Origin: Shimia sp. Alg240-R146
GTDB lineage: Bacteria > Pseudomonadota > Alphaproteobacteria > Rhodobacterales > Rhodobacteraceae
Length of the DNA: 64,000 nt
Assembly (NCBI RefSeq): GCF_947331465.1
Contig: NZ_CAMZOK010000001.1
Coordinates: forward strand, 124,001-188,000
Reading direction: 5' to 3'
The notes under the pieces were generated by a model. The model was not told the DNA's origin. It ran no database searches and worked only from the letters and a program-made list of their open reading frames with translations. Position numbers and translations under genes: made by a program. Position 1 is the stretch's first letter. Every line of letters starts with the position of its first letter. Of the stretch, positions 6,749-21,554 are shown piece after piece.

Positions 6749-7963
6749 TTATTCCGCCGGAGTCGCCTGATCCGCAGCGCTTGTCGCCGGATCTTTGGCC
6801 TTGGCCATCTCTTCATCGTACCAAAGCGAGTGGTGTTCCTTCGCCCATTGCTCATCGACTTCGCCGGTGCCCATCGTTTCGATCGCGCCTTCCATGCCGA
6901 CGCTGCCAAGGTAAATATGCGCGATGATGATGCCCATAAACACAAAGGCGATGATGCCGTGCCACAGCTGTGCGAGTTGCATTTCACCATATGGTGTCAA
7001 CATTTCCGGCAGCGCCGCCCCGCTAAAGAGTTGCGGCAGGCCCGTCATGTTCACGATCTTGAAGGTCTTGGCGAACATCGAAATTTCAAACGGGAACAGC
7101 AACGCTAATCCCGAAACCGAAATCGACACACCCAGCACAATCACGGACCAGAAAATGATCTTTTGACCCGCGTTGAATTTCTTGGCGGGCGGGTGCACCC
7201 CTTTGGAAAACAATCCCCCGGCCTTGGCCATCCACTGAATGTCGCCACGGTCCGGAATGTTGTGTTTGACCCAAAGGATGAACACAAAAATCAGGCTCAG
7301 CATAAACGCCCAGCTCATGTTGTTGTGCGCCCATTTCCCCGCCTGTGCGATCGATGAATATGTGTCATGCCCCATCCATGGGATCATGAATTTGCGCCCC
7401 GCAATAAGCACAAGACCACTGATGCCAAGCAGGATGAAACTCACCCCCATAACCCAATGGCAAAACCGCTCAAACGCATCAAAACGAATGATCATGCGGC
7501 CGGTTTTGGGGCCATCAATCATGATCTTGCCTCTAAAGGCATAAAACAGGGCAATGATCAGTACCATTCCCCCCAGAAAATACAGGCCGTACCTCAGAAG
7601 GGGACCTTCGCGGAACGTCAGCCAGCGCATACCGCCATCCTGAATGAGCAGGCCGGTCGTTGGGCCACGGGCGGTCGTGGTGGTGTCTGCACTGCCATAA
7701 CGCAGCGCGCGGAACACATCCGCATCCGACGCCGCACCGCGAGTGCCAAGCTGGCCAATCAGCGCTTCGACATTGCCTTGACCGGTATTGGCTCGCCGGT
7801 CCGCATCATCGACCTTTTCACCACGTTGGCGTGCCATGATGTCTTCCAGTGTCTGCGCACCTCCGGTGGTGGCTCGCGGTTCGGTCGCATCCACAGGCGC
7901 GTCCTCCGCCGAGGCGGGAAATGCCAGCATCACACTCAAAACAATCCACAAAAGCGCGCGCAT
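6749..7963 (-). CDS. Formate dehydrogenase gamma subunit (membrane cytochrome b)
   Basis: A 404-residue subunit that anchors FDH to the inner membrane and passes electrons from the iron-sulfur subunit to quinone through b haems. A cleavable signal peptide (MRALLWIVLSVMLAFPASA) precedes a periplasmic segment of about 110 residues, then a helix before the four-helix cytochrome b core. Candidate haem ligands are in RFCHWVMG, and in the last helices LWHGIIAF and IIIAHIYLG. The ATG at 7963 is chosen because GATGAGG lies just upstream and it begins the signal peptide; the frame is open back to 8083. It is separated from the beta-subunit gene by 131 bases that hold a perfect hairpin. The N-terminal extension makes it longer than E. 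coli FdnI or FdoI. Confidence 0.93.
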   Translation of the reverse strand: MRALLWIVLSVMLAFPASAEDAPVDATEPRATTGGAQTLEDIMARQRGEKVDDADRRANTGQGNVEALIGQLGTRGAASDADVFRALRYGSADTTTTARGPTTGLLIQDGGMRWLTFREGPLLRYGLYFLGGMVLIIALFYAFRGKIMIDGPKTGRMIIRFDAFERFCHWVMGVSFILLGISGLVLIAGRKFMIPWMGHDTYSSIAQAGKWAHNNMSWAFMLSLIFVFILWVKHNIPDRGDIQWMAKAGGLFSKGVHPPAKKFNAGQKIIFWSVIVLGVSISVSGLALLFPFEISMFAKTFKIVNMTGLPQLFSGAALPEMLTPYGEMQLAQLWHGIIAFVFMGIIIAHIYLGSVGMEGAIETMGTGEVDEQWAKEHHSLWYDEEMAKAKDPATSAADQATPAE

Positions 7964-8054
7964 TAGGAACCTCATCCGATCAATCACCAAATGCGGGGTT
8001 CGTTTCCCAATATGGAAGACGCCCCTAAATTCAGTTTGAATTTCGTTTGTGAAT

Positions 8055-8081
8055 GTGGCGGCCGGTGTGTCCGGCCGCCAC
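8055..8081 (-). terminator. Perfect 11-bp hairpin between FDH beta and gamma genes
   Basis: GTGGCGGCCGG at 8055-8065 is the exact reverse complement of CCGGCCGCCAC at 8071-8081, with a five-base loop. In the transcribed (minus) strand it follows the beta-subunit stop by 13 bases and is not followed by a clean U-run. It is therefore better read as a partial terminator or mRNA 3'-end stabiliser that would lower gamma-subunit and downstream expression relative to alpha and beta. Confidence 0.6.
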
Positions 8082-8094
8082 AAATCAAGCGGCT

Positions 8095-8688
8095 TTAGCC
8101 ACCTTTCTGTTCATAGGCTGTGCCCCAGCCCCAGGCGCCGGTGCCAAAGCCCCGTGCCACAACGCGTTCGCGATAGATGCCGGACACAACGTCCCCGTCA
8201 CCCGCCAACAGCGCCTTGGTCGAACACATCTCTGCACACAGTGGCAACTTGCCTTCGGCAATCCGGTTGCGGCCGTATTTGGAGAATTCCGCATTGGAAT
8301 GGTTCTCCTCCGGACCACCGGCGCAGAAGGTACACTTGTCCATCTTGCCTCGGCTGCCAAAATTGCCGGCCTGCGGATACTGCGGCGCGCCAAACGGACA
8401 CGCGTAGAAACAGTAACCGCACCCGATGCACAGGTCCTTGGAGTGCAGCACCACACCTTCTTCGGTCTGATAGAAACAATCCACGGGACAAACGGCCATA
8501 CACGGCGCGTCCGAGCAGTGCATACATGCCACCGAAATAGAACGCTCACCCGGGTTGCCGTCGTTGATTGTCACAACACGACGCCGGTTGATGCCCCAAG
8601 GCACCTCGTGCTCGTTCTTACAGGCGGTGACGCAGGCGTTGCATTCAATACAACGCTCGCTGTCGCAGAGAAACTTACTTCGTGCCAT
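8095..8688 (-). CDS. Formate dehydrogenase beta (iron-sulfur) subunit
   Basis: A 197-residue ferredoxin-like electron-transfer subunit with cysteine groups for four [4Fe-4S] clusters: CIECNACVTAC near the N terminus, CMHCSDAPCMAVC, CIGCGYCFYAC, and the split pair CTFC plus CAEMC. It passes electrons from the alpha-subunit active site to the membrane cytochrome b. It lacks the C-terminal membrane helix of E. coli FdnH and is much shorter (197 against about 290 residues), so attachment must rely on alpha and gamma. It starts 12 bases after the alpha stop, with a GAGAGAG ribosome site, and is clearly cotranscribed with it. The absence of its own signal peptide fits export by hitchhiking on the Tat signal of alpha. 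Confidence 0.93.
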   Translation of the reverse strand: MARSKFLCDSERCIECNACVTACKNEHEVPWGINRRRVVTINDGNPGERSISVACMHCSDAPCMAVCPVDCFYQTEEGVVLHSKDLCIGCGYCFYACPFGAPQYPQAGNFGSRGKMDKCTFCAGGPEENHSNAEFSKYGRNRIAEGKLPLCAEMCSTKALLAGDGDVVSGIYRERVVARGFGTGAWGWGTAYEQKGG

Positions 8689-8700
8689 TTCTCTCTCTCC

Positions 8701-11595
8701 TTATGCTGCCCAGATTTTGCAGAGAGTACACTTGGTCTCCTGCATCTGGGTCACGCTGTCATAGCCATAGGTCTGCGCCGTGTTGGTGCTTTCACCCAAC
8801 ACATATGGATCGGCACCGGCGGGGTATTTGCTCCGCAGATCCTCTCCTTCGAAGTGACCGCCAAAGTGGAACGGCATAAAGGCAACGCCTTCGCCGACGC
8901 GGTTGGTGACCATGGCCATAACTTTGACCTTGGCGCCCTCCGCCCCTTCGACCCAGACCTGCGCCCGGTCACGCACGCCAAGATTATTCGCATCACGCGG
9001 ATTGATCTCGACAAACATGTCCTGTTGCAGTTCCGCCAGCCACGGGTTGGATCGGGTTTCATCCCCGCCCCCTTCGTATTCCACCAGACGCCCGGAGGTC
9101 AGCACGATTGGATAATCCTTGCTGAAGTCCTGCTTCTGGATCGAGGCATACATGGTCGGCAGACGATAGAACTTCCGGTCCTCATAGGTTGGATAGTCCT
9201 CCACCAGATCGCGACGCGGCGTATACAGCGGCTCACGATGCAGCGGAATCGGATCCGGGAAGGTCCACACGACCGCGCGGGCCTTGGCGTTGCCAAAGGG
9301 CGCGCACTCATGCTTGATCGCAACCCGCTGGATCCCGCCCGAAAGGTCGGTTTTCCAGTTGGTCTTGGGACCAGCCACGGCGTCAATCGATGCACGTTCC
9401 TCATCCGTCAGATCGCCATCCCAACCAAGGTCCATCAGCATCTGCATGGTGAACTCTGGATAGCCATCCTGGATCTCGGAATCGAGGCTTGCGACACCTT
9501 CGGCCAACAGGTTGTCACCATCCCGCTCCACGCCAAAGCGCGCACGGAATGTCAGTCCGCCCTCAGAGACACGTTTGGACATGTCATAAAGGTTCGGCGT
9601 GCCCGGATGGTTCATCTCTGCGGTGCCCCAACACGGCCACGGCAGACCATAGTAGTCGCCATCCGCAGGCCCACCATTGGCGCGCAACGTCGTGCGGTCA
9701 AAGGTGTGCTGGTTCGCCATATGCAGCTTGATGCGCTCCGGCGATTGTCCGGTATAACCGATTGTCCACAGACCTTTGTTGAACTCGCGCGTGACGCTTT
9801 CAACGTTGGGTGTGTTTTCGTCTTCCATCTCGATATTGCGGAAGAACCGGTCGGCCCAGCCAAACTTGTTCGCAAACATGCCCATGATTTCATGGTCCGG
9901 CTTGCTCTCAAACAGCGGCGCCACAACGGCGTCGCGCCATTGGAAGCTACGGTTAGAGGCGGTAACAGAACCACGGGTCTCAAACTGGGTACACGCTGGC
10001 AACAGATACACACCATCGGTGCGGTCCTGCATAACGGCGGAGACCGTGGGATACGGGTCAACCACGACCAGCATGTCCAAGTTCTCCATCGCGGTTTTCA
10101 TTTCTTTACCGCGTGTCTGGCTGTTGGGCGCATGCCCCCAAAGCACCATGGCCCGCACTTTGTCGGGGTTGTCCATGTTCTCGGGATCTTCAAGAACGCC
10201 ATCGATCCAGCGCGACACCGGAATACCAGTGAGGTTCTGAAGCGACTTTTCCTTGCCGTCAGCACCTGTGGTCTTGGCAAACTGGTTGCCCAGCCACTCG
10301 CCATCTTCTTCCCAAACACGGGCCCAATGCGCCCACGCCCCTTTGGACAGGCCATAATAGCCCGGCAAAGTGTGGCTCAGAACGCCAAGGTCGGTCGCAC
10401 CTTGTACGTTGTCGTGTCCACGGAAAATGTTGGTGCCGCCGCCTTCGGTGCCCATGTTGCCAAGGGCCAATTGCAGAATGCAATACGCACGGGTGTTGTT
10501 GTTGCCATTGGTGTGTTGCGTACCACCCATGCACCAAATCACGGTGCCGGGACGGTTGTTCACCAAGGTGCGCGCCACACGGCGCAGCTGCGTGCCGGGT
10601 GTGCCGGTCACACGTTCCACTTCCTCCGGGTTCCATTTCCGTACTTCGTCGCGGATCTGGTCCATGCCCCAAACACGGGTGCGGATGAATTCTTTGTCTT
10701 CCCAACCGTTTTCAAAGATGTGCCACAGAAGCCCCCAAACCAGCGCCACATCGGTGCCGGGACGGAACCGCACATATTCATCTGCATGCGCCGCCGTGCG
10801 GGTGAACCGCGGGTCACACACGATCAGCGGTGCGTTATTGCGCTCTTTCGCGCGCAGCACGTGCAACAGCGAGACAGGGTGCGCCTCGGCTGGGTTGCCG
10901 CCAATAATGAAGATGGCTTTGGAGTTATGAATGTCGTTGTAGCTGTTGGTCATGGCGCCGTAGCCCCATGTATTCGCCACACCGGCAACGGTGGTCGAGT
11001 GACAGATACGCGCCTGGTGATCCACGTTGTTGGTGCCCCAATATGCGGCAAACTTGCGGAACAGATACGCCTGTTCGTTGTTGTGCTTGGCAGACCCCAG
11101 CCAATATACGCTATCAGGGCCGCTTTCTTCGCGGATCTTCATCATGCCGTCGCCGATCTCGTCGATCGCTTGCTCCCAGCTGATGCGTTTCCACTCACCA
11201 CCCTCTTTTTTCATCGGGTACTTCAGGCGGCGCTCGCCATGGGCGTGCTCGCGGACCGATGCGCCTTTGGCACAGTGGGCGCCAAGGTTGAAAGGACTGT
11301 CCCAACCGGGCTCTTGCCCGATCCAAACGCCGCTTTGCACTTCGGCAACTACCGTACAGCCCACAGAACAGTGGGTGCAGACGGATTTTACGGTTTGTAC
11401 GGCGGTGTTGGCGGCGTCTTGCGCCTGCGCCTGTGTAACGGTGCCACCTGTGGCACCAATCGCTGCCAGCCCGCCAATGGCGAGACCGGAGCCGCGCAAA
11501 AACGTGCGGCGATCCACTGATTTTTCAGCAGCGGCAGACAGGATACTTGTCCGCTGGGGGCGTCGCGCAACCCCGTTGGTCTTTTTCCTAAGCAT
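8701..11595 (-). CDS. Formate dehydrogenase alpha subunit (Mo/W-bis-PGD, cysteine form), Tat exported
   Basis: A 964-residue catalytic subunit of the DMSO-reductase superfamily oxidising formate to CO2. A twin-arginine signal (DRRTFLRGSG, about residues 28-37) sends it to the periplasm. An N-terminal [4Fe-4S] site uses Cys73, Cys76, Cys80 and Cys108. The metal ligand region ARICHSTTVAG has cysteine at residue 198 where E. coli FdnG has selenocysteine, so no Sec recoding is needed. The ATG at 11595 has a GGAGG site; the frame is open to 11667 but the longer form has no ribosome site and would displace the Tat signal. The C terminus ends with CTLC, an unusual extra cysteine pair. Nearby tungstate uptake genes leave open whether the metal is Mo or W. 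Confidence 0.94.
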   Translation of the reverse strand: MLRKKTNGVARRPQRTSILSAAAEKSVDRRTFLRGSGLAIGGLAAIGATGGTVTQAQAQDAANTAVQTVKSVCTHCSVGCTVVAEVQSGVWIGQEPGWDSPFNLGAHCAKGASVREHAHGERRLKYPMKKEGGEWKRISWEQAIDEIGDGMMKIREESGPDSVYWLGSAKHNNEQAYLFRKFAAYWGTNNVDHQARICHSTTVAGVANTWGYGAMTNSYNDIHNSKAIFIIGGNPAEAHPVSLLHVLRAKERNNAPLIVCDPRFTRTAAHADEYVRFRPGTDVALVWGLLWHIFENGWEDKEFIRTRVWGMDQIRDEVRKWNPEEVERVTGTPGTQLRRVARTLVNNRPGTVIWCMGGTQHTNGNNNTRAYCILQLALGNMGTEGGGTNIFRGHDNVQGATDLGVLSHTLPGYYGLSKGAWAHWARVWEEDGEWLGNQFAKTTGADGKEKSLQNLTGIPVSRWIDGVLEDPENMDNPDKVRAMVLWGHAPNSQTRGKEMKTAMENLDMLVVVDPYPTVSAVMQDRTDGVYLLPACTQFETRGSVTASNRSFQWRDAVVAPLFESKPDHEIMGMFANKFGWADRFFRNIEMEDENTPNVESVTREFNKGLWTIGYTGQSPERIKLHMANQHTFDRTTLRANGGPADGDYYGLPWPCWGTAEMNHPGTPNLYDMSKRVSEGGLTFRARFGVERDGDNLLAEGVASLDSEIQDGYPEFTMQMLMDLGWDGDLTDEERASIDAVAGPKTNWKTDLSGGIQRVAIKHECAPFGNAKARAVVWTFPDPIPLHREPLYTPRRDLVEDYPTYEDRKFYRLPTMYASIQKQDFSKDYPIVLTSGRLVEYEGGGDETRSNPWLAELQQDMFVEINPRDANNLGVRDRAQVWVEGAEGAKVKVMAMVTNRVGEGVAFMPFHFGGHFEGEDLRSKYPAGADPYVLGESTNTAQTYGYDSVTQMQETKCTLCKIWAA

Positions 11596-11703
11596 TGTGT
11601 TCCTCCCTTGCTGTCCCGCTTTGGGGACTGGCTCGGTATTCACGAAATCCCGACCGGTGGGCGTCACGCAACCGGTGGTCGGGGGCGGGGTGATGTCGTC
11701 CGG

Positions 11704-11951: not shown

Positions 11952-12560
11952 TCACTCCGCCCCCATGCGGAATGCCTGCGTTTCAATCGCCATGAAGGCT
12001 TTGCCAACCGTGCCGACCGGCGCATACAGCACCGAATTTTGCGCGGCTTCGAGATCGGAAAAGAAGTGTTCGGCCCAAGGCGCGATGTGGCGAAAAAAGA
12101 AATCCTTCTGTCGGGCCACAGGCACCGCCGCGCCAAACCGGCCACGGATCATGCCCGACATCATCTCCATCAGGCTGGCGATATTGTCTTCGGGTTCGTA
12201 AACGTTGGGCGCCCGCGTGATGCGCAGCCCGGCCATATCCGCGCGCAAACTCGCCAGCGGCTTCTCATTCAAAAATCCGGTCAAATAATAGCTCGCAAAA
12301 GGCATCAACTCGCCCCGTCCAAGCCCGATGAACAGCGCGTTGAACTCGCTTTCCACCGCTTTGACGTTGGTCGCCCTCGCCACGCGGGCCAAGGTGCTCA
12401 CCGCCTGTCCCAAATCGCTGTCATCGCCCGCGAGTCCGGCTGTGCGCTCCAACAAACCTTTGTCGGCTGGCCCCGCCAAAAGCGCGGACAGGAAATCATA
12501 AAGATCTGCCCGCAGCAGATCCTCTTCGGCAATAGTGGGTTGCACAGCAGTATCAGTCAT
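11952..12560 (-). CDS. TorD/DmsD-family chaperone for formate dehydrogenase
   Basis: A 202-residue all-helical cytoplasmic protein with the TorD-like pattern RADLYDFLSALLAGPAD near the N terminus and the conserved EFNALFIGLGRGELMPFASYYL segment in the middle, equivalent to the family E-x(3)-L-F-x-G motif. Such chaperones hold the Tat signal and apo-enzyme of molybdo- or tungsto-enzymes until the cofactor is inserted. It overlaps the DUF3306 gene by four bases (ATGA), so translation is coupled. Its dedicated client is inferred to be the FDH alpha subunit two genes downstream. Confidence 0.9.
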   Translation of the reverse strand: MTDTAVQPTIAEEDLLRADLYDFLSALLAGPADKGLLERTAGLAGDDSDLGQAVSTLARVARATNVKAVESEFNALFIGLGRGELMPFASYYLTGFLNEKPLASLRADMAGLRITRAPNVYEPEDNIASLMEMMSGMIRGRFGAAVPVARQKDFFFRHIAPWAEHFFSDLEAAQNSVLYAPVGTVGKAFMAIETQAFRMGAE

Positions 12561-13177
12561 TGGCTCTCCATCGCGGGGGCGGCATCTGCAAATTCAAATC
12601 TCATCCGGCGGCGCAACGTTGGCGCCATCTCCTCCGGCTCAGTCTCTTCGTCCTGGTCAACAAAAGCCGGCTCAATCGGAACAATCTCCGGCTCGGCGTC
12701 CGCCAATTCCAGACTCTCTTCCTCCGGCTCACCCTCACCCGAGGTGTCCTGAAGGTCACCATCAGCCTCCGCTGCTTTTCGGGCCATTTCCTCAACGTGT
12801 TTGAGCATGCCCTTGCCGACTTGATACGCGGTCTGAAGCCCTTCAACGACCATGGCGCTGTCGGTGAAATCTTCTCCGTAGTCCACCAGCCCGTCGACAT
12901 TCGCCAACGTCGGATTGGTCAGCCAAAGCTTGCGCAACGCCCGCCGCCGCAAACGCTCCGGCACAGCTTTGGTCAAAAAGGCCGAGAAATCATCGCCCGC
13001 CTGCATATCGTCAGGGTCGCGCAACTCCAGCTCCGCCAGAATCTCTGCGTCAGGCTTTTCTTCCAGCGCCGCTTGCGCCTCCGCCTCGACCGCTTGCACC
13101 TCAGCACGGCTTTCGGCCTCTGCCTCGGCAGCAACCGCAGCCTTACGGCGCGCCCAGAAATCACCGCCGCCGTTCAA
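12557..13177 (-). CDS. DUF3306 domain protein of the FDH accessory set
   Basis: A 206-residue soluble protein. The N terminus reads GGDFWARRKAAV, typical of DUF3306, followed by an Ala/Glu-rich helical stretch and a conserved core RDPDDMQAGDDFSAFL with LRRRALRKLW. The C-terminal half is very acidic. It overlaps both neighbours by four bases, so three accessory genes are translated as one unit. DUF3305 and DUF3306 proteins accompany TorD-type chaperones in FDH operons; a role in FDH maturation is inferred and no catalytic residues are evident. Confidence 0.85.
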   Translation of the reverse strand: MNGGGDFWARRKAAVAAEAEAESRAEVQAVEAEAQAALEEKPDAEILAELELRDPDDMQAGDDFSAFLTKAVPERLRRRALRKLWLTNPTLANVDGLVDYGEDFTDSAMVVEGLQTAYQVGKGMLKHVEEMARKAAEADGDLQDTSGEGEPEEESLELADAEPEIVPIEPAFVDQDEETEPEEMAPTLRRRMRFEFADAAPAMESQ

Positions 13178-13731
13178 TTTGGCCTCCCGGTGCGCGGCGC
13201 GCGGAAAACATCCGACAGCTGCGAAATCCGTGGATCGCCGCGCCCGTCTTCAACTCCGTCCACCCGCGACTTGTCACGCCGCCGCTTCACGAACACCTCT
13301 TCTTCGTGGTGCTCTTGAACAAAATCACGGATCAGCGCCACCAAACCTTCGGGCATTGGCACCAATTCCAACAGCTCTTCGCCGCTGTCTGCATAGTCCT
13401 GACATTCGTAAGGCGACGCCGTCGCCAACAACACGTCATAAGGATGATCTGTGTCGCCTTCCGCACCATCGCGCATCACAACACCAATGCTCGGAACGCG
13501 TGCCGACAGGCCAGTCAAATATGCTTCGGTATCGGTATGCCACAACTCTAGCGGGACTGTTGCAGCGTGGTATTCGACAACATCGCCGTCTTCGCGCAGC
13601 ACCTGCCACTCAGCAGCCCCCGCGCCGGGAATAACGCTCACGGCTTTATACGCCCAAGGCGCCCACCGGCTGACCGAAGGCGTCCTGCGCACCACGATGC
13701 CCAAAGGCAAAGAGACTGGCGCTTGCCGCAT
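13174..13731 (-). CDS. DUF3305 domain protein of the FDH accessory set
   Basis: A 185-residue soluble protein beginning MRQAPVSLPLGIVVRRTPSV with the conserved RWAPWAYKAVSV segment of DUF3305, which continues into a small beta-rich domain. The ATG at 13731 is chosen because it opens directly onto the conserved domain; the frame is open to 13824 but the added residues are hydrophobic and unlike the family. It is the first gene of the long minus-strand FDH array, so the promoter lies between it and the divergent ferredoxin gene at 14068. The stop overlaps the DUF3306 start by four bases. Molecular role unknown. Confidence 0.85.
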   Translation of the reverse strand: MRQAPVSLPLGIVVRRTPSVSRWAPWAYKAVSVIPGAGAAEWQVLREDGDVVEYHAATVPLELWHTDTEAYLTGLSARVPSIGVVMRDGAEGDTDHPYDVLLATASPYECQDYADSGEELLELVPMPEGLVALIRDFVQEHHEEEVFVKRRRDKSRVDGVEDGRGDPRISQLSDVFRAPRTGRPN

Positions 13732-14067
13732 AATTATCGTCTTCCTCCCAATCCGGCCAAATCGCCGGACGTCAAAAAATATTTTGATCCAGAATATGAT
13801 CCCAGCGTAGACCGAGTTTGCCAAAGGATTTCAGAAAAAATGTACGGCAGAGGCAAATAACTGGACATTTTGTGCTTCTGACCTCTGCCCCTAGGGAAGG
13901 CAGGGACAGTTTGTCCCCGCAAGACAATAACCCATAGAATCACTCGGCTTTATCTCCACCCCTCAGACGCCCACCTGCGCGGGATGCAGGGGTTTACGTG
14001 GCTCAGGAAACATGCCTTTCTGACCCCCGCAAACGGGAGATTGCAGCCGGAGGAGCCAGACGACCCC
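13732..14067. promoter_or_regulatory. Divergent control region of the FDH array with inverted repeats
   Basis: A 336-base non-coding region between the two divergent FDH-linked transcription units. It holds GGCAGAGG at 13846-13853 matched by CCTCTGCC at 13882-13889 (28-base loop), and a short palindrome GGGACA-GTT-TGTCCC at 13903-13917. A strong ribosome site GGAGGAG sits at 14049-14055 for the plus-strand gene. The central AT-richer part (about 13770-13870) is the likely promoter area. The repeats could be a binding site for the FDH response regulator; this is not shown by the sequence. Confidence 0.5.
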
Positions 14068-16029
14068 ATGCCCAAATCATTGATTCTATGTGATTGTTCA
14101 AACACGTCTAACGTGCATTCCGATGCGCTTTCGACCGTTGACGGCATCACCTGCTCCAAGCTCTACACCGGGCTCTGCACCCATCAGACTGACGCAGCCG
14201 CAGCCGCGCTTTCGGGTGGCGACGCAATCATCGCCTGCCAGCAAGAACGCGCCCTCTTCACCGAAATGGCAGCTGATCTGGATCTGCCTGAACCGCATTT
14301 TGTCGACCTGCGTGACCGCGCCGGATGGTCTGATGAGGCCGCAAAATCCGGCCCAAAACAGGCCGCCCTTCTGGCAGACGCCCTGCGTCCGTCCCCGCCG
14401 GTCAAGACCTTTGATATCGTCTCCGAAGGGTTGTGCCTGATCCTCGGCGCACCCGAGGCCGCGCTACAGGCCGCCGCCGACCTCAAAGACCATCTCAATG
14501 TCACCGTTTTGCTGGAAAACCCTGACGATGCCCCGCTTGATCGCAGCTTTGACGTGGTCGCGGGTCGCCTGAAGTCCGCCAAAGGCGCGCTCGGCGGGTT
14601 CACTGTTCAGATCGACGCATTACAACAACTTGAACCCTCCGGCCGCGGAGCGCTTTCCTTTGGACCTGCGCGTGATGGCGGCCGCACCGAATGCGACGTT
14701 ATCCTTGACTTGCGCCGAGACCCACCGCTTTTCCCCGCACATGAAAAACGCGAAGGCTACTTGCACGCCGATCCGGGCAGCGCCCCTGCGCTGCGTGCCG
14801 CCATTCTCGAAGCATCCCACCTTGTCGGCACCTTCGAAAAACCCTTCTTTCTGGCGCTGGACCCGACCATCTGCGCCCACTCGCGGGCCGAACAAACCGG
14901 CTGCACCAAATGCTTGGATGCCTGCCCCACATCTGCGATCCGCCCTGATGGCGATCACATCGACATTGATCCCAACATCTGTGCCGGTTGCGGATCCTGC
15001 GCAGCGCTCTGTCCCTCTGGCGCCATCACCTACGACGATCCGCCCACCAGTTTTTTGTTCACCCGCATTGCTGGTCTGGCCGACGCCTTTCGGGCTGCGG
15101 GCGGCACGGAACCGCGCCTGTTGGTACATGACCGCGATTTCGGCGCTGAAATCATTTCGATGGCCGCGCGGTTTGATCGCGGCCTGCCCGCCGACGTGAT
15201 CCCGATGGATCTGGAACGGGTCTCGGGCTTTGGCCACGCCGAAATGCTTGCGGCAATGGCCTGCGGCTTTGCAGGTGTTGATATCCTCGCGGCGCCAACC
15301 ACAGACCGCAGCGCATTCGACACGGAACTGGGGTTGGCACAGGCGCTGTCTGGAACCCCGGAAGCTCTGCGCCTTCTGGAACCCTCAGAGCCGGCCCAAC
15401 TTTGCGACGCACTCTATGGCGTCACAACCAAAGCCCCTCTGATCGAGCCTATCCTGCCGCTTGGCACGCGTCGTCAGGTCACGCGCCTCGCTGTGAAAAC
15501 CCTGCAACCGGACCTCGCTGCACCGCTGCCTTTGCCAGAAAACGCCCCTTACGGCGCCGTGTTGGTCGACAAAGACGCCTGCACGCTCTGCCTGTCTTGC
15601 GCGTCCCTCTGTCCGGCTGGCGCGCTTGGCGACAACCCCGACATGCCGCAATTGCGCTTTCAAGAAGACGCCTGCCTGCAATGTGGTCTGTGCACCCACG
15701 TCTGCCCTGAAAACGCGATCACGTTGCAACCTCAGCTCAACACCGCCGACGACGCTCTGTCACAAAAGGTTGTGCACGAAGAAGCCCCCTGTGAATGCGT
15801 CGAATGTGGTAAGCCGTTTGGTGTGAAGTCCACCGTTGAGCGCATCATCGAAAAGCTCGAAGGCAAACACGCGATGTTCGCCACCTCAGACGCCGCCCGC
15901 ATGATCCGCATGTGCGAAGACTGCCGTGTGAATGCGCAGTTCCATCAACAGGACAACCCATTTGCGTCCGGCGAACGCCCCCGCGTGCGCACAACGGACG
16001 ATTACCTGTCCAAGCGTCGGGATCACTGA
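14068..16029 (+). CDS. Large multi-cluster 4Fe-4S ferredoxin protein linked to FDH
   Basis: A 653-residue cytoplasmic protein with at least four classical [4Fe-4S] motifs in two pairs: CTKCLDACP and CAGCGSCAALCP around residues 280-320, and CTLCLSCASLCP and CLQCGLCTHVCP around residues 505-555. There are extra cysteines near the N terminus (LCDCSNTSN) and a C-terminal CECVECGKPF / CEDC pair. Non-cluster regions resemble no enzyme I recognise. The ATG at 14068 has GGAGGAG upstream; a longer frame starts at 13984. It is divergent from the FDH array and convergent with the TupA/cytochrome chimera (7-base overlap). A role moving electrons between formate oxidation and a soluble acceptor or maturation factor is inferred. 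Confidence 0.85.
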   Translation: MPKSLILCDCSNTSNVHSDALSTVDGITCSKLYTGLCTHQTDAAAAALSGGDAIIACQQERALFTEMAADLDLPEPHFVDLRDRAGWSDEAAKSGPKQAALLADALRPSPPVKTFDIVSEGLCLILGAPEAALQAAADLKDHLNVTVLLENPDDAPLDRSFDVVAGRLKSAKGALGGFTVQIDALQQLEPSGRGALSFGPARDGGRTECDVILDLRRDPPLFPAHEKREGYLHADPGSAPALRAAILEASHLVGTFEKPFFLALDPTICAHSRAEQTGCTKCLDACPTSAIRPDGDHIDIDPNICAGCGSCAALCPSGAITYDDPPTSFLFTRIAGLADAFRAAGGTEPRLLVHDRDFGAEIISMAARFDRGLPADVIPMDLERVSGFGHAEMLAAMACGFAGVDILAAPTTDRSAFDTELGLAQALSGTPEALRLLEPSEPAQLCDALYGVTTKAPLIEPILPLGTRRQVTRLAVKTLQPDLAAPLPLPENAPYGAVLVDKDACTLCLSCASLCPAGALGDNPDMPQLRFQEDACLQCGLCTHVCPENAITLQPQLNTADDALSQKVVHEEAPCECVECGKPFGVKSTVERIIEKLEGKHAMFATSDAARMIRMCEDCRVNAQFHQQDNPFASGERPRVRTTDDYLSKRRDH

Positions 16030-16766
16030 TGCGCGATGGGCGCCCCAAGGTCGGCAGGGTCAATCCCCGCGACATAGGCCACGATGTCCTCGATCTCCTC
16101 CAAGGTGACCGTCACGGGCGCGATGGGCGATGGCCGCGTTTCGTCAAATTCCTCGATCACTTCGGGGATGATGGTGAACGATGGGTGCGGGTTCAGCACA
16201 TAGAAGATTTCAAACCGTTCCTGCCAGTCACCCATCGTGCGCAAAACGGCAAAGGACGGCGTCGATCCGATCCCCGCCATCCGGTTGATCTCGCCAATCA
16301 CGTGGCACCGTCCGCAGGCCCGCAAACTGGCGTCCTGCCCACGGCGCGCATCCCCGCTCAGCGCAACTTCCGCGACCTCTTCCTGAACCACAACCGGTTC
16401 GGAGAACACCGAGTCCCCATCAACTTTGAAGCTCAGCACCGTGCGCAATCCGATATCGCTGGTCAGCCATGCCGCGAAGGTTTCGCCGTGCGGGCTGTCC
16501 GTGGTCAGAACCAGCCCGACACCGACACCTTCCTTGGCAAAGACCGGCACGCCGGCCTCCCCCAATACCGCCTCCGCGTCACTCTCGACGACCGTGACAC
16601 GCACACCATGCTTCAGCGCAAACCGAGGCAACATGAACGCCAACAATCCGCTGTCGCTGACCTCAGGGGGCGCGGACAACGTCAGTGTCTTGCCCTGTGC
16701 CGAAAGTGGCCCGGAACCCAAACCCAAACAGACACACACGCAGCAAAGAAACCGAACAAATCCCAT
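16023..16766 (-). CDS. Chimeric protein: shortened TupA-like binding fold plus c-type cytochrome
   Basis: A 247-residue exported protein. After a signal peptide (about residues 1-24), residues 27-60 (LTLSAPPEVSDSGLLAFMLP...) match the start of tungstate-binding TupA proteins, and residues 97-124 (FAAWLTSDIGLRTVLSFKVDG...F) match the TupA C terminus; compare LEAWLVGERAKELIDGYQLNG in the TupA of this window. The middle of a normal TupA is missing. A haem motif CGRCH follows at 151-155 with a cytochrome c-like C-terminal domain. Its stop overlaps the ferredoxin gene on the other strand by seven bases. It may be a haem protein that lost or reshaped the anion site. Function unknown; the fusion reading is mine. 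Confidence 0.7.
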   Translation of the reverse strand: MGFVRFLCCVCVCLGLGSGPLSAQGKTLTLSAPPEVSDSGLLAFMLPRFALKHGVRVTVVESDAEAVLGEAGVPVFAKEGVGVGLVLTTDSPHGETFAAWLTSDIGLRTVLSFKVDGDSVFSEPVVVQEEVAEVALSGDARRGQDASLRACGRCHVIGEINRMAGIGSTPSFAVLRTMGDWQERFEIFYVLNPHPSFTIIPEVIEEFDETRPSPIAPVTVTLEEIEDIVAYVAGIDPADLGAPIAHQ

Positions 16767-16834: not shown

Positions 16835-17035
16835 ATGAGCGAAGATTTCAACATGACGATGCGCAAGTTTCTCAAGCAGGTTGGCGTGACCAGCCAACAG
16901 GCCATCGAAGACGCCATGCGCTCCGCCGGATCGGACACCACGGCGGGCAAAGAGTTCTCCGCCAAAATGGTGCTCACAATCGATGGGCTGGACATGGAAC
17001 ATGTCGTCACCGGCAAAATCAAAGGACGCGACTGA
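16835..17035 (+). CDS. Small DUF6494-type protein
   Basis: A 66-residue soluble protein (MSEDFNMTMRKFLKQVGVTS...) with a short N-terminal helix-rich half and a C-terminal strand pair (AKMVLTIDGLDMEHVVTGKI). The pattern matches the small DUF6494 family seen next to Mrp in Rhodobacterales. A GACCGAGACG segment rather than a strong ribosome site precedes the ATG at 16835. The stop TGA is immediately followed by the ATG of the Mrp gene, so the two are translationally coupled. The C-terminal half could be a partner for an Fe-S carrier; that is inference. Confidence 0.75.
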   Translation: MSEDFNMTMRKFLKQVGVTSQQAIEDAMRSAGSDTTAGKEFSAKMVLTIDGLDMEHVVTGKIKGRD

Positions 17036-18100
17036 ATGGCAACTCGTGACGAAGTTCTCAATGTTCTGAAAAGCTTGAAAGACCCGGTCAGCGGCGCTGA
17101 TCTGGCGTCCTCCGGCATGGTCCGCGCCCTCAATGTGGACGGCGGCGAGGTGCGGTTCGTGATGGAAATCGACCCCGCTCACGCTGCGGCGCTGACCCCG
17201 ATCAAGGCTGAGGCCGAAGACAAGATCATGGCTCTGGACGGGGTGGAGAAAGTCTCCGTTGTGATGACTGCCCACGCCGCGCCCTCGGCACCGCCCGATT
17301 TAAAAGCGAACCGTCCGGCCCAGCCGCAAGGACCTCAGAAAATACCGGGAATCGACCGTATTCTGGCCGTGGCGTCCGGCAAAGGCGGCGTTGGAAAATC
17401 CACCGTCTCCGCCAATCTTGCCGCCGCGCTCGCCGCCGAAGGCCGCCGCGTGGGTTTGTTGGATGCTGATGTCTACGGCCCCTCGCAGCCGCGGATGCTC
17501 GGCGTCTCCGGCCGACCTTCCAGCCCCGATGGCAAGACAATACTGCCCATGCGCAACCACGGCGTGACGATGATGTCGATCGGCCTGATGACCCGCGAAG
17601 AGGAGGCCGTGGTCTGGCGCGGCCCGATGCTGATGGGGGCGCTGCAACAGATGCTCAATCAGGTGCAATGGGGCGCGCTGGATGTGCTGATCGTCGACCT
17701 GCCGCCCGGCACCGGCGACGTGCAGATGACGCTTGCTCAAAAAGCTGAACTGACCGGCGCCGTGATCGTTTCCACGCCGCAGGACATCGCCCTTTTGGAC
17801 GCCCGCAAAGGGATCAACATGTTCGAAAAACTCGGCACGCCCATCGTTGGCATGATCGAGAACATGAGCACGCATATATGTTCCAACTGCGGCCACGAGG
17901 AACACGTCTTTGGTCATGGCGGCGTCGCGGCCGAGGCCGAAAAACTCGACGTGCCGTTGCTGGCGGAAATCCCGCTTTCCATGGACATTCGCATTGCCGC
18001 CGACGGCGGCGCGCCCATAGTGGTCAGCAAACCAAACGCACCGCAGGCACAGGCGTTCCGCACGTTGGCCCGCACTCTGATCGAAAGCGGTCACGCATGA
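17036..18100 (+). CDS. Mrp/ApbC-family Fe-S carrier ATPase
   Basis: A 354-residue cytoplasmic ATPase. An N-terminal MIP18/DUF59-like domain (about residues 3-80) is followed by a proline-rich linker and a deviant P-loop GKGGVGKST (about 117-125), a DVLIVDLPPGTGD Walker B-like segment, and the family CxxC motif in ICSNCGHEEH that binds a shared [4Fe-4S] cluster. Mrp proteins carry Fe-S clusters to target enzymes. The gene is the second of four tightly packed genes and shares an ATGA overlap with the next. Being next to an FDH locus rich in clusters, it is a candidate for delivering clusters to the ferredoxin protein or FDH subunits, though Mrp also has general roles. Confidence 0.93.
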   Translation: MATRDEVLNVLKSLKDPVSGADLASSGMVRALNVDGGEVRFVMEIDPAHAAALTPIKAEAEDKIMALDGVEKVSVVMTAHAAPSAPPDLKANRPAQPQGPQKIPGIDRILAVASGKGGVGKSTVSANLAAALAAEGRRVGLLDADVYGPSQPRMLGVSGRPSSPDGKTILPMRNHGVTMMSIGLMTREEEAVVWRGPMLMGALQQMLNQVQWGALDVLIVDLPPGTGDVQMTLAQKAELTGAVIVSTPQDIALLDARKGINMFEKLGTPIVGMIENMSTHICSNCGHEEHVFGHGGVAAEAEKLDVPLLAEIPLSMDIRIAADGGAPIVVSKPNAPQAQAFRTLARTLIESGHA

Positions 18101-18822
18101 CCTCTACGCCGCAATTCCCGCCGCTCTTTGAGGGGCTTGGCCTGACCGGCGCAGCTGATCCTTTTGCCAAGGCTCAGCTACAAGCGACGATGGGCTGCGA
18201 CGCGGGGCTTGTGGTCTACAACATCGCCGCCGATCAACTGCGCGCCGCGATTGTTTTCGCCCCCGAGGTCCCGCTTGAACAGGCCATGTCGGTCATGATC
18301 TGCTGCGGCATCGGCTTTCAGAACGCCCTTGGCGCATTGGCCCCGCCCGAAGTCGGCGTGCATCTGGACTGGACCGGTGGCGTCTATGTGAATGGTGCCA
18401 GCTGCGGACATATGCAGGTGGCCGCGTCCTCCTCCGATCCCGTTCAGATACCGGACTGGCTGGTCGTCGGGCTGCAGCTGCCACTGTTGCCAATCGACCC
18501 TAACACACCGGGAAACGCGCCAAATCAAACCTGCCTCTTCGAAGAAGGCTGCGTTGACATCCCGCCCGAGGATCTTCTGTCCGCCTGGGTGCGCCACACG
18601 CTGGTCTGGATCAACCGCATGGAAGATGCCGGCACAAAACCTTTGAACGATGAATGGCGCGGCCTTGTCCGCCAACTAGGCGAAGACGTGTCTTTTTCAC
18701 TGGGCAACACCGCCTATGACGGCCTGTTTGTTGGCGTTGACGAATGGTTTGGCATGCTGCTGCGCAATGACGACACCACTGGCCTGATTCCGCTTTCGAC
18801 CCTCTTGCAAGGAGACACCTGA
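18097..18822 (+). CDS. Biotin/lipoate-protein ligase-like protein lacking the catalytic lysine
   Basis: A 241-residue protein with a biotin/lipoate-ligase-like fold in the first ~150 residues and a DUF4444-type C-terminal domain (about 165-240). The strand that carries the catalytic lysine in BirA (consensus WPND-VNGKKVGGIL) reads VYVNGASCGHMQVA, so the lysine is missing, and the RGR-type nucleotide loop is not evident. The start codon overlaps the Mrp stop (ATGA) and its stop overlaps the next start by one base. A non-catalytic or altered acyl-ligase role in this conserved unit is inferred. Confidence 0.8.
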   Translation: MTSTPQFPPLFEGLGLTGAADPFAKAQLQATMGCDAGLVVYNIAADQLRAAIVFAPEVPLEQAMSVMICCGIGFQNALGALAPPEVGVHLDWTGGVYVNGASCGHMQVAASSSDPVQIPDWLVVGLQLPLLPIDPNTPGNAPNQTCLFEEGCVDIPPEDLLSAWVRHTLVWINRMEDAGTKPLNDEWRGLVRQLGEDVSFSLGNTAYDGLFVGVDEWFGMLLRNDDTTGLIPLSTLLQGDT

Positions 18823-19301
18823 TGCACCTCGCCCGCGCGATCCACTTTGACGAAAGCGACCAACGCATCTTCTTTAACCCAGCCCGCACCGGCGAATGGG
18901 CCATCAGCGGTGGCTTCGAATTCTCCAACTGGGGGGACGGCGACCTGACCGGCAAAGCCCGCCAAGCTTTTGCCAACGGTTGGCTCGGTGTTGAAACCTT
19001 TGGCCGCGTGACTTTTGTGGCCGTGACCGCCATCGAAGAAGCCGAATTGGCCACTTTGGAACAAGCGCTGGCGAAACATTTCGTCGACCTCTACGGCGCG
19101 CCGTCGCTTGAGGCTGCTTTGCCCGTCGCTCGGGACGAGCTGCGCCACATGATTGAATTGTGTGATGAACATGACCCAAACACGCTTCTGACTGTCATCC
19201 GAGAGCTGTCAGACACTGGTGTGCGGGAGCAATTCAGCGCGATCAAACCGGCGGAGGCCGAGCTTGATCAATTCGCGGTGCATGCCGTGCCGGATGAATA
19301 A
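18822..19301 (+). CDS. DUF6505-type protein, last gene of the Mrp unit
   Basis: A 159-residue soluble protein (MHLARAIHFDESDQRIFFNPARTGEW...). The N-terminal part is rich in strands with a conserved-looking GEWAISGGFEFSNW segment, and the C-terminal half is helical and acidic. It matches the DUF6505 family that accompanies the DUF6494-Mrp-ligase-like genes. The start ATG shares one base with the stop of the ligase-like gene. It converges on tupA with 38 bases between stop codons. No catalytic motif is visible and the role is unknown. Confidence 0.75.
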   Translation: MHLARAIHFDESDQRIFFNPARTGEWAISGGFEFSNWGDGDLTGKARQAFANGWLGVETFGRVTFVAVTAIEEAELATLEQALAKHFVDLYGAPSLEAALPVARDELRHMIELCDEHDPNTLLTVIRELSDTGVREQFSAIKPAEAELDQFAVHAVPDE

Positions 19302-19339: not shown

Positions 19340-20140
19340 CTATTTTGCGTTGAATGTGAACAACTGCTCTCCGTTCAGTTGATACCCGTCAATCAACTCT
19401 TTTGCGCGTTCACCGACCAACCACGCCTCCAGCTTCGCCGCCAAACCCGCCCTTACATGACTGTTCCTTTCTGCATTCACTGGCAGATAGGAGTATTGAT
19501 TGAACAACACTGGATCACCCGCAAACAAGAGCGCGAGATCGCCCTTGTTGCCGAACTTAAGCCAACTGGCCCGATCCGACATGATGTAGGCGTTCATGCC
19601 CGACGCCGTATTCAACGCCGCACCCATGCCCGCGCCGACCTCGCGATACCACGACACGTCCCGCTCTACTTCGCCCGAGACCGCCCAAAGCGACAGCTCT
19701 TTCTTGTGAGTTCCACTGTCATCGCCGCGGCTGACAAATGGCGCTTCAGTCGCTGCAATGGCACCAAGAGCCTCCGCCGCCGATCCTGCATCGGAGATGT
19801 TTGCCGGATCGCTCGCGGGTCCGATCAACACAAAATCATTGTACATGATCTCTGTACGGTGCGTGCCGTAACCTGCACCAACAAACGCCTCTTCCGCAGC
19901 CTTGGAATGCACCAAAATTGCGTCCACATCGGCAGCCTCGCCCAGCCGGATCGCCTGCCCTGTGCCAACCACCAGCAACTGAACCTCAAGCCCCAGGTCG
20001 GCCTCAATTTCCGGCAACAGAACGTCGGCCAGTCCCGAGTTGTGAAACGAGGTCGTGACCGCCATCTTCATGGTGTCCGCTGCGGCCATGCCACCGGTCG
20101 CAACCAACGCGGCTGCGGCCAAAACTGCTCTGATTGTCAT
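19340..20140 (-). CDS. tupA: Tungstate ABC transporter substrate-binding protein TupA
   Basis: A 266-residue periplasmic binding protein with signal peptide (residues 1-21, ending AAAD). The anion-site motif TTSFHNSGL near residue 30 corresponds to the TTTS-x2-SGL signature of TupA, and SRGDDSGTHKKE matches the family's second anion-contact region. TupA binds tungstate with much greater affinity than molybdate, whereas ModA binds both. It is the last gene of a three-gene operon, overlapping tupC by four bases. Its position beside the FDH locus suggests it supplies metal for the FDH cofactor. Confidence 0.9.
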   Translation of the reverse strand: MTIRAVLAAAALVATGGMAAADTMKMAVTTSFHNSGLADVLLPEIEADLGLEVQLLVVGTGQAIRLGEAADVDAILVHSKAAEEAFVGAGYGTHRTEIMYNDFVLIGPASDPANISDAGSAAEALGAIAATEAPFVSRGDDSGTHKKELSLWAVSGEVERDVSWYREVGAGMGAALNTASGMNAYIMSDRASWLKFGNKGDLALLFAGDPVLFNQYSYLPVNAERNSHVRAGLAAKLEAWLVGERAKELIDGYQLNGEQLFTFNAK

Positions 20141-20856
20141 TCGACAATGTCTCCTTGGATAAATGCGCGCGCTTCCGGGGATTTTGGGGTCGCGAAAAAG
20201 GCCTCCGCTGGGGCGGCTTCGTGAATGAGGCCATGGTGGATAAACCAGACATCCTCTGCCAAGCGCCGTGCCTGTCCAATGTCATGGGTGGCCATCACGA
20301 TACGGGTGCCTTCGGCCCGGGTCTCGGCCAACAAATCTTCGAATTCTCGGGTCGCTCGCCCGTCCAAATTGGCGCAAGGTTCATCCAGAAACACAATCTG
20401 CGGCTCGCGGATCAACGCCCGCGCCAATGCCATTTTCTGACGCTCGCCACCGGACAACACATGCGCCGGTTTGCTACCGCTGTCAGCCAATCCGACCCGC
20501 TCCAACCAGTCTGCCGAGCGCGCCCGCGCATCTGTTTGTGCAACCCCGTGCACCAATAACGGATAGGCCACGTTGTCCAAGGTCGACCGCCGCATCAGGA
20601 TTGGCGTCTGAAACACAAACGCCTGCGCCGCCCGCGCCATTGGCTCGGGCACTTGCCACGTCAACTGGCCTTTGCTGACCCGCTCCATGCCGTGCAAAAG
20701 ACGCAACAACGTGGTCTTTCCCGCCCCGTTCGGCCCCATCACAATTGTGAGCCCATCAGTCTCTAATTCAGCGGAAATTGGCCCAACAAGCACCTTGCCC
20801 CGCCGCCGGACAACGGCTTTGGTGACTGTCAGCGGAAGGATCGCAGCATCTACCAT
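20137..20856 (-). CDS. tupC: Tungstate ABC transporter ATP-binding protein TupC
   Basis: A 239-residue ATPase with Walker A GPNGAGKTT, signature LSGGERQK, Walker B IVFLDEP and a switch histidine in MATHDIG. It couples ATP hydrolysis to tungstate import. It overlaps the permease gene by seven bases and tupA by four, so all three are translated together. No C-terminal regulatory TOBE domain is present, which differs from molybdate ModC. Confidence 0.9.
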   Translation of the reverse strand: MVDAAILPLTVTKAVVRRRGKVLVGPISAELETDGLTIVMGPNGAGKTTLLRLLHGMERVSKGQLTWQVPEPMARAAQAFVFQTPILMRRSTLDNVAYPLLVHGVAQTDARARSADWLERVGLADSGSKPAHVLSGGERQKMALARALIREPQIVFLDEPCANLDGRATREFEDLLAETRAEGTRIVMATHDIGQARRLAEDVWFIHHGLIHEAAPAEAFFATPKSPEARAFIQGDIVE

Positions 20857-21554
20857 CTTCCGCTCCTTTCTGTGCGCGACAGGCTATGGATGATCAGGTT
20901 CACGGCGACCGCCAACCCGATCAAGACAAACCCAAGCGCCAATGCCAGCGCAAAGTTGCCTTTGCCGGTCTCCAGCGAAATCGCCGTCGTCAAAACCCGT
21001 GTTGCGTGGTCGATGTTGCCACCCACAATCATGATCGCGCCGACCTCTCCAATCCCGCGCCCGAACCCCGCCAGCGCCGCCGTCAGCAACGCCCGCCGCC
21101 CGTCCCACAACAAGGTCGCGATACGCTGTCTACGCGTGGTGTTCAGCGAAATCAGCAGGTCGTGATACTCCGCCCACAGATCCCGAATTGCCTGATGCGA
21201 AATGCTCGCGATCAGTGGCGTCAGAATGATCACTTGCGCAATAATCATCGCCGTGGGTGTAAACAGCAGCCCAAACACGCCAAACGGCCCGGACCGGCTT
21301 AGCAGAATGTAGACGATCAGCCCGACCACAACAGGAGGCAGGCCCATCAAAGCATTCAACGTGGCAATTACAAAGCGTCGAAACCGGAACCTGCGCACCG
21401 CCAACCAACAGCCCAACGGCAGACCTATGATTGACGAAATCAGCACAGCCGTCAGCGTCACCCGCAACGAGCGCAGCGAGATCTCGATCAGATCGGCATC
21501 CAGTGAGAGGATAAGTTGGCCCGCCTTCAGCAGCCCTTCGACAATCTCGTTCAT
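20850..21554 (-). CDS. tupB: Tungstate ABC transporter permease TupB
   Basis: A 234-residue integral membrane permease with five to six hydrophobic helices and the EAA-like loop LLWDGRRALLTAALAGFGRGIGEVGA that docks the ATPase. The IGEVGAIMIVGGNI segment is typical of TupB-type permeases. It is the first gene of the tupBCA operon; no strong ribosome site precedes the ATG at 21554, which may limit translation. It lies divergent from the TRAP binding-protein gene across a 388-base intergenic region. Confidence 0.88.
   Translation of the reverse strand: MNEIVEGLLKAGQLILSLDADLIEISLRSLRVTLTAVLISSIIGLPLGCWLAVRRFRFRRFVIATLNALMGLPPVVVGLIVYILLSRSGPFGVFGLLFTPTAMIIAQVIILTPLIASISHQAIRDLWAEYHDLLISLNTTRRQRIATLLWDGRRALLTAALAGFGRGIGEVGAIMIVGGNIDHATRVLTTAISLETGKGNFALALALGFVLIGLAVAVNLIIHSLSRTERSGRW

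Follow-up and report, generated by a model that had tools for sequence, protein, structure and literature searches.

How a fragment of a tungstate-binding protein comes to be joined to a c-type cytochrome beside a formate dehydrogenase (FDH) locus, and what the joined protein might do there, are questions raised by a stretch of the Shimia sp. Alg240-R146 genome (contig NZ_CAMZOK010000001.1, positions 124,001 to 188,000; 64,000 nucleotides, hereafter the window). The gene concerned (Table 1) was found where a preliminary description had placed it, at 16023-16766 on the minus strand, encoding 247 amino acids with a hydrophobic N-terminal signal. Its product is a monohaem c-type cytochrome that carries a relic of the tungstate-binding protein TupA at approximately residues 25-128; this architecture is firm. 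As for function, we infer that the protein may be a soluble one that partners periplasmic formate dehydrogenases of the FDH3 type.

Table 1. Features of the fusion gene and of the surrounding FDH3-type locus (positions in the window)
Feature	Position	Strand	Basis or remark
TupA-lobe/c-type cytochrome fusion gene	16023..16766	-	ORF; 247-aa product
Sec-type signal sequence, residues 1-23	16698..16766	-	sequence; cleavage site by eye; model helix 2-16
N-terminal TupA lobe-A piece, ~residues 26-72	16551..16691	-	profile comparison; family-specific PRFxxK (R48, K52)
C-terminal TupA lobe-A piece, ~residues 91-128	16383..16496	-	profile comparison; W100, G106, F113, G117, F121
c-type cytochrome domain, residues 138-247	16026..16355	-	Pfam Cytochrom_C match among members
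CGRCH haem-binding motif, residues 151-155	16302..16316	-	C151, R153, C154, H155 invariant (69-protein alignment)
His194 codon, proposed distal haem ligand	16185..16187	-	His in 70/70 fused copies
Polyferredoxin (Fer4)	13984..16029	+	convergent with fusion gene; 3' ends overlap by 7 bases
DUF6494 small protein	16835..17035	+	divergent neighbour of fusion gene
Mrp/NBP35-type ATPase	17036..18100	+	named after same-place gene annotated in Sagittula sp. P11
DUF3305 protein	13177..13824	-	family match
DUF3306 protein	12560..13177	-	family match
TorD-family chaperone	11952..12560	-	NCBIfam matches, under cut-offs
Formate dehydrogenase alpha subunit	8701..11667	-	TIGR01591 3.1e-141, under cut-off; start uncertain
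FDH3 beta subunit	8095..8688	-	NF038355 344.7 bits, cut-off 240
FDH gamma subunit, cytochrome b	6749..8083	-	TIGR01583 over cut-off; start uncertain
WD40 beta-propeller + c-type cytochrome fusion	5450..6748	-	adjoins fdhG; CSICH motif
tupA, full-length tungstate-binding protein	19340..20140	-	NF041772 1.6e-57, under curated cut-off
tupC	20137..20856	-	named by position
tupB	20850..21554	-	TupB NF041773 4.6e-52, under cut-off
DUF6505	18822..19301	+	family match

Gene neighbourhood

The fusion gene reads away from its divergent neighbour, and the opposite-strand Fer4 gene separates it from the FDH operon. On the far side of the locus lie genes for a biotin/lipoate-ligase-family protein and for DUF6505, followed by tupA-tupC-tupB; the full-length tupA (19340-20140) is 2.6 kb from the fusion gene, as had been remarked from the sequence. 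FDH3 of M. extorquens PA1 is described as periplasmic in the part of PMC12180729 that was covered.

The locus contains a second haem protein, a WD40/cytochrome fusion (5450-6748, minus strand), and ORFs with a similar WD40-like start, judged by eye, adjoin fdhG in two other loci (L146 and L148). Just downstream of the FDH genes (1961-5318, minus strand) are a Cache-domain histidine kinase and a sigma-54-type response regulator, a candidate regulatory pair for the FDH locus; a sigma-54-dependent regulator also follows the locus in L176. The uncharacterised families DUF6494 and DUF6505 recur in annotated loci of Sulfitobacter and Sagittula.

The haem domain

The collected loci yielded 73 distinct proteins, every one of which contains exactly one CxxCH motif (signal sequences were judged by eye). 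Of these, 69 were aligned (L044 is absent from the alignment), and conservation was counted on 70 rows, which leave out a copy cut at a contig end (L016) and two cytochromes that lack the TupA-like domain (L066 and L067). The c-type haem domain claimed in the preliminary description was recovered at residues 138-247, with its single motif, CGRCH, at residues 151-155. Of the 69 members, 56 match Pfam Cytochrom_C at E<=0.1, with 4.6e-5 as the best value; the window copy scores 15.3 bits, below the cut-off of 21.3. Residues invariant in the 69-protein alignment are G143, C151, R153, C154, H155, S171, F172, P193, H194, P217, L240 and G241.

Met163, the commonest methionine of the domain, is present in 69% of copies, and past the haem motif methionine is lacking altogether in 5 of 71 proteins. 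The histidine of a PH pair sits 38-39 residues past the haem histidine in 69 of 71 proteins (by the script's rule of taking the first PH) and at the matching place in all 13 lone cytochromes, that is, those without the TupA-like lobe (by eye). Because His194 is invariant where a methionine ligand is usual, the haem is likely to have two histidine ligands, His155 and His194.

Homology of the N-terminal domain to TupA

Comparison of single sequences is insufficient to prove a match to TupA: BLASTP of the window fusion against the window TupA gave 29% over 51 amino acids (E 0.068), phmmer against the TupA 3lr1 gave E 0.16, and the window copy matched none of 18,950 NCBIfam models. With a family profile the relationship is clear. 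The HMM built from 69 N-terminal domains matches 36 of 36 TupA proteins (13 recruited via a match to the fusion family, 23 independently) in at least two pieces, with the order kept in all 36 and whole-sequence scores of 18.1 to 54.6 bits, and zero matches were obtained with this HMM against reversed TupA sequences or with 20 column-shuffled profiles against TupA. The window TupA is among the weak matches (pieces of 5.2 and 11.7 bits, at residues 22-66 and 231-264). Residues 27-60 and 97-124 of the fusion, which the preliminary description had matched to the two ends of TupA, both lie inside the profile-matched pieces, and the missing middle that it described is evident in the spacing of the pieces, which are separated by a median of 160 residues (109-173) in TupA versus approximately 15 in the fusion.

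Among PDB chains, the best-ranked matches to the lobe HMM were 3muq, 5my5, 3cvg, 3lr1 and 3kn3, of which 5my5 is TupA, 3lr1 is tungstate-binding, and 3cvg, in third place, is a putative metal-binding protein; 3muq and 3kn3 are grouped with TupA through a TTTS motif in the covered part of PMC5517513. TupA (NF041772) is also the most-matched family in a search of the 18,950 NCBIfam models, with 24 of 69 members matching (best 1.8e-6). Placement of residues 27-125 in an unrelated domain, which had been raised as a possible refutation, was the outcome of neither search. In hhalign the lobe aligned with TupA over the N-terminal piece only (40 columns, probability 95.9). The fusion is 258-281 amino acids long in 9 of 70 copies, and seven long copies of our choice, which retain extra mid-lobe residues, again aligned over the N-terminal piece only (39 columns, 97.5); homology of the C-terminal piece is therefore drawn from HMMER only.

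Searched against the host genome, the lobe profile finds tupA (E 0.085) and the fusion itself and nothing else. Among the matches listed for the fusion profile in order and class samples are ORFs of approximately 260-500 amino acids that match through the two pieces alone; ten of ten such loci examined encode a protein matching the window TupA, and all ten have an adjoining tupC or tupB match. No full TupA joined to a cytochrome is present among the matches listed in the family, order, class and phylum searches.

A binding-protein lobe was likewise found when the proposed structure model was made. AlphaFold2 predicts the lobe alone with high confidence (pLDDT 94.8, pTM 0.87) as a single lobe consisting of a strand, helices, four strands and then two helices, and its top PDB match in Foldseek is TupA 5my5 (TM 0.69 by query length). 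Neither this model nor the full-length one has a Foldseek match at E<=0.001, and the best match has an rmsd of 11.1 over 246 gapped columns, the fold match being read from the TM of 0.69 and the rank order. The full-length model has a pTM of only 0.62, which leaves the arrangement of the two domains relative to each other uncertain. Lobe A of D. alaskensis TupA comprises residues 2-76 and 201-251, and lobe B residues 91-200, according to the covered part of PMC5517513. The lobe HMM matches 5my5 in pieces 28-70 and 238-273, which correspond to approximately 5-47 and 215-250 in D. alaskensis numbering (offset 23, derived from the TTTS motif). What survives is thus part of each end of lobe A and none of lobe B, and the identity of residues ~25-128 as a TupA relic, in which the end pieces of lobe A are joined and lobe B is missing, is confirmed.

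Loss of the anion site

The retained anion-binding fold envisaged in the preliminary description was not borne out by the family. TupA residues T29, T30 and S31 are present in 35, 35 and 34 of 36 TupA proteins, while the fusions have proline at the first of these places in 55 of 70 copies and mixed residues at the next two; TTS or TTT (TT[ST]) occurs at this place in 0 of 70. The GTG loop is found in 36 of 36 TupA proteins versus 0 of 70 fusions, and the place of the GTGQA loop falls within the N-terminal matched piece. The D. alaskensis binding-site residues R118, T124 and D170 are carried by lobe B (PMC5517513, in the part covered), which is absent from the fusion. Because the TTS- and GTG-type motifs and lobe B are gone, the fusion should not bind tungstate in the manner of TupA. 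These losses, together with the observation in the covered part of PMC10601554 that the halves of ribose-binding protein, once separated, still fold but lose binding function, make it highly improbable that the lobe remains a sensor for tungstate or some other anion, with the haem as its reporter, even though the TupA origin and the nearby tupA would suit such a sensor. The earlier suggestion of reporting on metal or formate-linked electron flow is divided accordingly: metal sensing has no sequence support, and formate-linked electron flow is the best inference.

Other residues have been kept or gained. G40, P47 and W100 are common to the fusion and TupA, while R48 (70/70) and K52 (69/70) are fixed in the fusion and variable in TupA, giving a PR[FV]xx[KR] pattern in all 70 fusions.

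Distribution and conservation of the locus

The fusion was sought in 295 Rhodobacteraceae genomes, one per genus with one exception, and counts are raw, ignoring kinship. Matches were obtained in 106 genomes, one of which (G288) matched through TupA itself and was excluded; the remaining 105 contain this cytochrome, fused in 103 and lone in 2. Among the 106 there were 60 with long flanks (window included) and 9 with short ones, and in 37 the fusion was judged by match range alone. Thus, both halves are conserved across many genomes, as the preliminary description had hoped of a real system, and the fusion is found in approximately 100 of the genera sampled. In a sample of 378 genomes of the phylum (E<=1e-12), ten matches comprised seven from Rhodobacteraceae and three lone forms of Alphaproteobacteria. 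Five of 72,556 plasmid records carry the fusion (Sagittula, Tateyamaria, Sulfitobacter), annotated as a hypothetical protein in four and as a c-type cytochrome in one; in Sagittula sp. P11 its neighbours are fdh3B and the other genes of the locus.

The association with FDH that had been noticed in the window extends to nearly all of these genomes. DUF3305, a marker of the FDH3-type locus, is encoded by 138 of the 295 genomes: 104 of the 105 with the cytochrome versus 34 of the 190 without it. In the sole cytochrome genome lacking DUF3305 (G008), less than 160 bases separate the cytochrome from a contig end. In 101 of the 104 genomes the two genes share a contig, and their match starts are 2.5-3.6 kb from each other; of the remaining three, G102 has them on separate contigs, while G004 and G054 are lone forms. 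Thus, 101 of 103 fusions lie within 3.6 kb of DUF3305. The gene order Fer4, cytochrome, DUF6494, Mrp recurs across the examined loci. The cytochrome slot is empty in 11 of 14 examined loci that have DUF3305 and lack the cytochrome, Fer4 being followed directly by DUF6494 or Mrp, and the other three have a different arrangement. Since FDH loci that are otherwise kept can be without the gene, the cytochrome is regarded as an optional module. These empty slots, in loci where the other genes are kept, make it quite unlikely that the fusion helps to assemble or protect FDH3, with its haem used to activate the exported enzyme reductively or to shield it from oxygen; the gene does sit amid the likely maturation genes TorD, DUF3305, DUF3306, Fer4 and Mrp, but nothing points specifically to maturation.

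TupA is encoded by 103 of the 105 cytochrome genomes, 33 of the 34 with DUF3305 only, and 58 of the 156 others. It tracks FDH, not the cytochrome, and its enrichment in genomes with the FDH3-locus marker or the cytochrome (136 of 139, versus 58 of 156 others) suggests that the FDH3-type enzyme uses tungsten. The same counts bear on a very improbable role for the lobe, in which it would dock on the TupB permease or pair with TupA, and the redox state of the haem, set by FDH, would gate tungstate import: TupA accompanies nearly all of the cytochromes and is equally common in cytochrome-less FDH loci. If true, such a redox-controlled plug would tie the supply of metal to the enzyme requiring it.

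Lone relatives, origin and fate of the lobe

Lone cytochromes are found in other families of Alphaproteobacteria and are rare in Rhodobacteraceae (L066, L067 and L152). The examined stretch contains fdhA in 6 of 13 lone forms and tupA in four (L141, L142, L145 and L146), and one lone cytochrome (L140) occupies the same slot as the fusion. In the two lone-form genomes among the 105, the stretch examined contains no FDH genes. Another lone-cytochrome stretch without an FDH gene (L144, 11462-14271) places the cytochrome approximately 2 kb from a gene that we take, by eye, to resemble a xanthine-dehydrogenase-type molybdenum enzyme. Two tandem tupA genes are present in L136 (about 916-2705), and a tandem arrangement of this kind may have supplied the extra copy that went into a fusion.

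The haem domains of 40 of the 71 fused proteins and of the 13 lone forms were placed in a 53-member tree, which we rooted on two long-branched lone forms. The free tree requires three label changes, and a single fused clade is not rejected (p-AU 0.54); 28 of 50 inner branches are weak, so the tree does not fix the number of fusions. Of the lone forms, nine branch outside the fused sequences, two have no resolved position, and two (L067 and L140) are nested within them, so that loss of the lobe, or transfer, is possible. The position of the nine fits, weakly, a fusion made after the cytochrome had joined FDH, a single origin being neither shown nor rejected.

The lone cytochrome of L140 in the identical slot would be expected if the lobe were a decaying passenger, a function-less relic of fusion, and the cytochrome did all the work. 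The lobe is also less conserved than the whole protein (mean column identity 31% in the lobe alignment versus 42% in the full-protein alignment), and it evolves faster than the haem domain, with dN/dS in two pairs of 0.10 and 0.16 for the lobe versus 0.02 and 0.04 for the haem domain, dS being saturated (~2.3) in one of the two. Nevertheless, these ratios are well below 1, P47, R48, W100 and G106 are invariant across 70 copies, the single-lobe model is confident, and 103 of 105 genomes retain the lobe; the two that do not are those without FDH genes in the stretch examined. A passenger lobe is therefore considered unlikely.

Proposed function

The reading preferred here, to which we assign a probability of about 0.5, is that the fusion is an optional redox partner of a periplasmic FDH3-type formate dehydrogenase, with the TupA lobe as its docking domain. 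A tupA-derived sequence would have lost the part encoding lobe B and been joined ahead of a small c-type cytochrome of the FDH locus, and the product would be exported to the periplasm. In this product the N-terminal domain would be a single TupA lobe A, its halves closed by a short beta hairpin with no anion site left, and the C-terminal domain would hold one haem, probably between His155 and His194. The partner enzyme would be periplasmic and probably tungsten-dependent; the haem would relay single electrons to or from FDH or a second acceptor, while the lobe, with its conserved R48 and K52, may serve in docking. Of this account, the sequences themselves show the homology, the absence of lobe B and of the TTS and GTG motifs, the invariance of His194 and the conserved locus; export, bis-His ligation, tungsten use, redox partnership, docking and the direction of the fusion belong to the proposal. 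In favour of a redox partner are the two-piece TupA homology, the co-location with DUF3305, the recurring gene order, the FDH3 beta subunit over its cut-off, the occurrence of TupA with FDH, the lone relatives beside fdhA, the fixed R48 and K52, and the low dN/dS. Against it are the intervening opposite-strand Fer4 gene, the empty slots (11/14), the faster evolution of the lobe, L140, and the pTM of the full model (0.62). An old metal-uptake part reused in the formate metabolism of many marine bacteria is suggested.

Comparison with known systems

No description of the fusion was found among the titles and abstract openings listed in searches of an open-access library, and the covered parts of PMC13197769 make no mention of the gene. 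The locus of the window has a gene set similar to that of the known FDH3-type periplasmic formate dehydrogenase locus (fdhGHI, TorD/DmsD, DUF3305, DUF3306, fer4); FDH operons with DUF3305/DUF3306 are shown in the covered part of PMC4464133, the main text of which has 0 occurrences of 'cytochrome c'.

Small class-I-like c-type cytochromes (Cytochrom_C), PsbV/cytochrome c549 included, share the CxxCH motif and C-terminal helix with the fusion, but the fusion differs in its PH histidine, its IGSTPSF...NPHPxFT signature and its N-terminal TupA lobe. Weak matches were also obtained to cytochrome c549 (1f1c, E 0.047) and PsbV (E 0.08). PsbV and cytochrome c549 are bis-His cytochromes.

The fusion resembles TupA (NF041772; 5my5, 3lr1) in the sequence and predicted fold of the end pieces of lobe A, where the SG, P, W, G and F positions are among those shared. 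Unlike TupA, it lacks lobe B, part of lobe A and the TTS and GTG motifs, and has fixed R48 and K52, an attached haem domain, and a single lobe in place of a two-lobe cleft. It is apparently a natural case in which a two-lobed binding protein has been reduced to a single lobe, has lost its ligand motifs and has been put to new use within a redox protein, and it invites the question of how lobes of binding proteins come to be reused.
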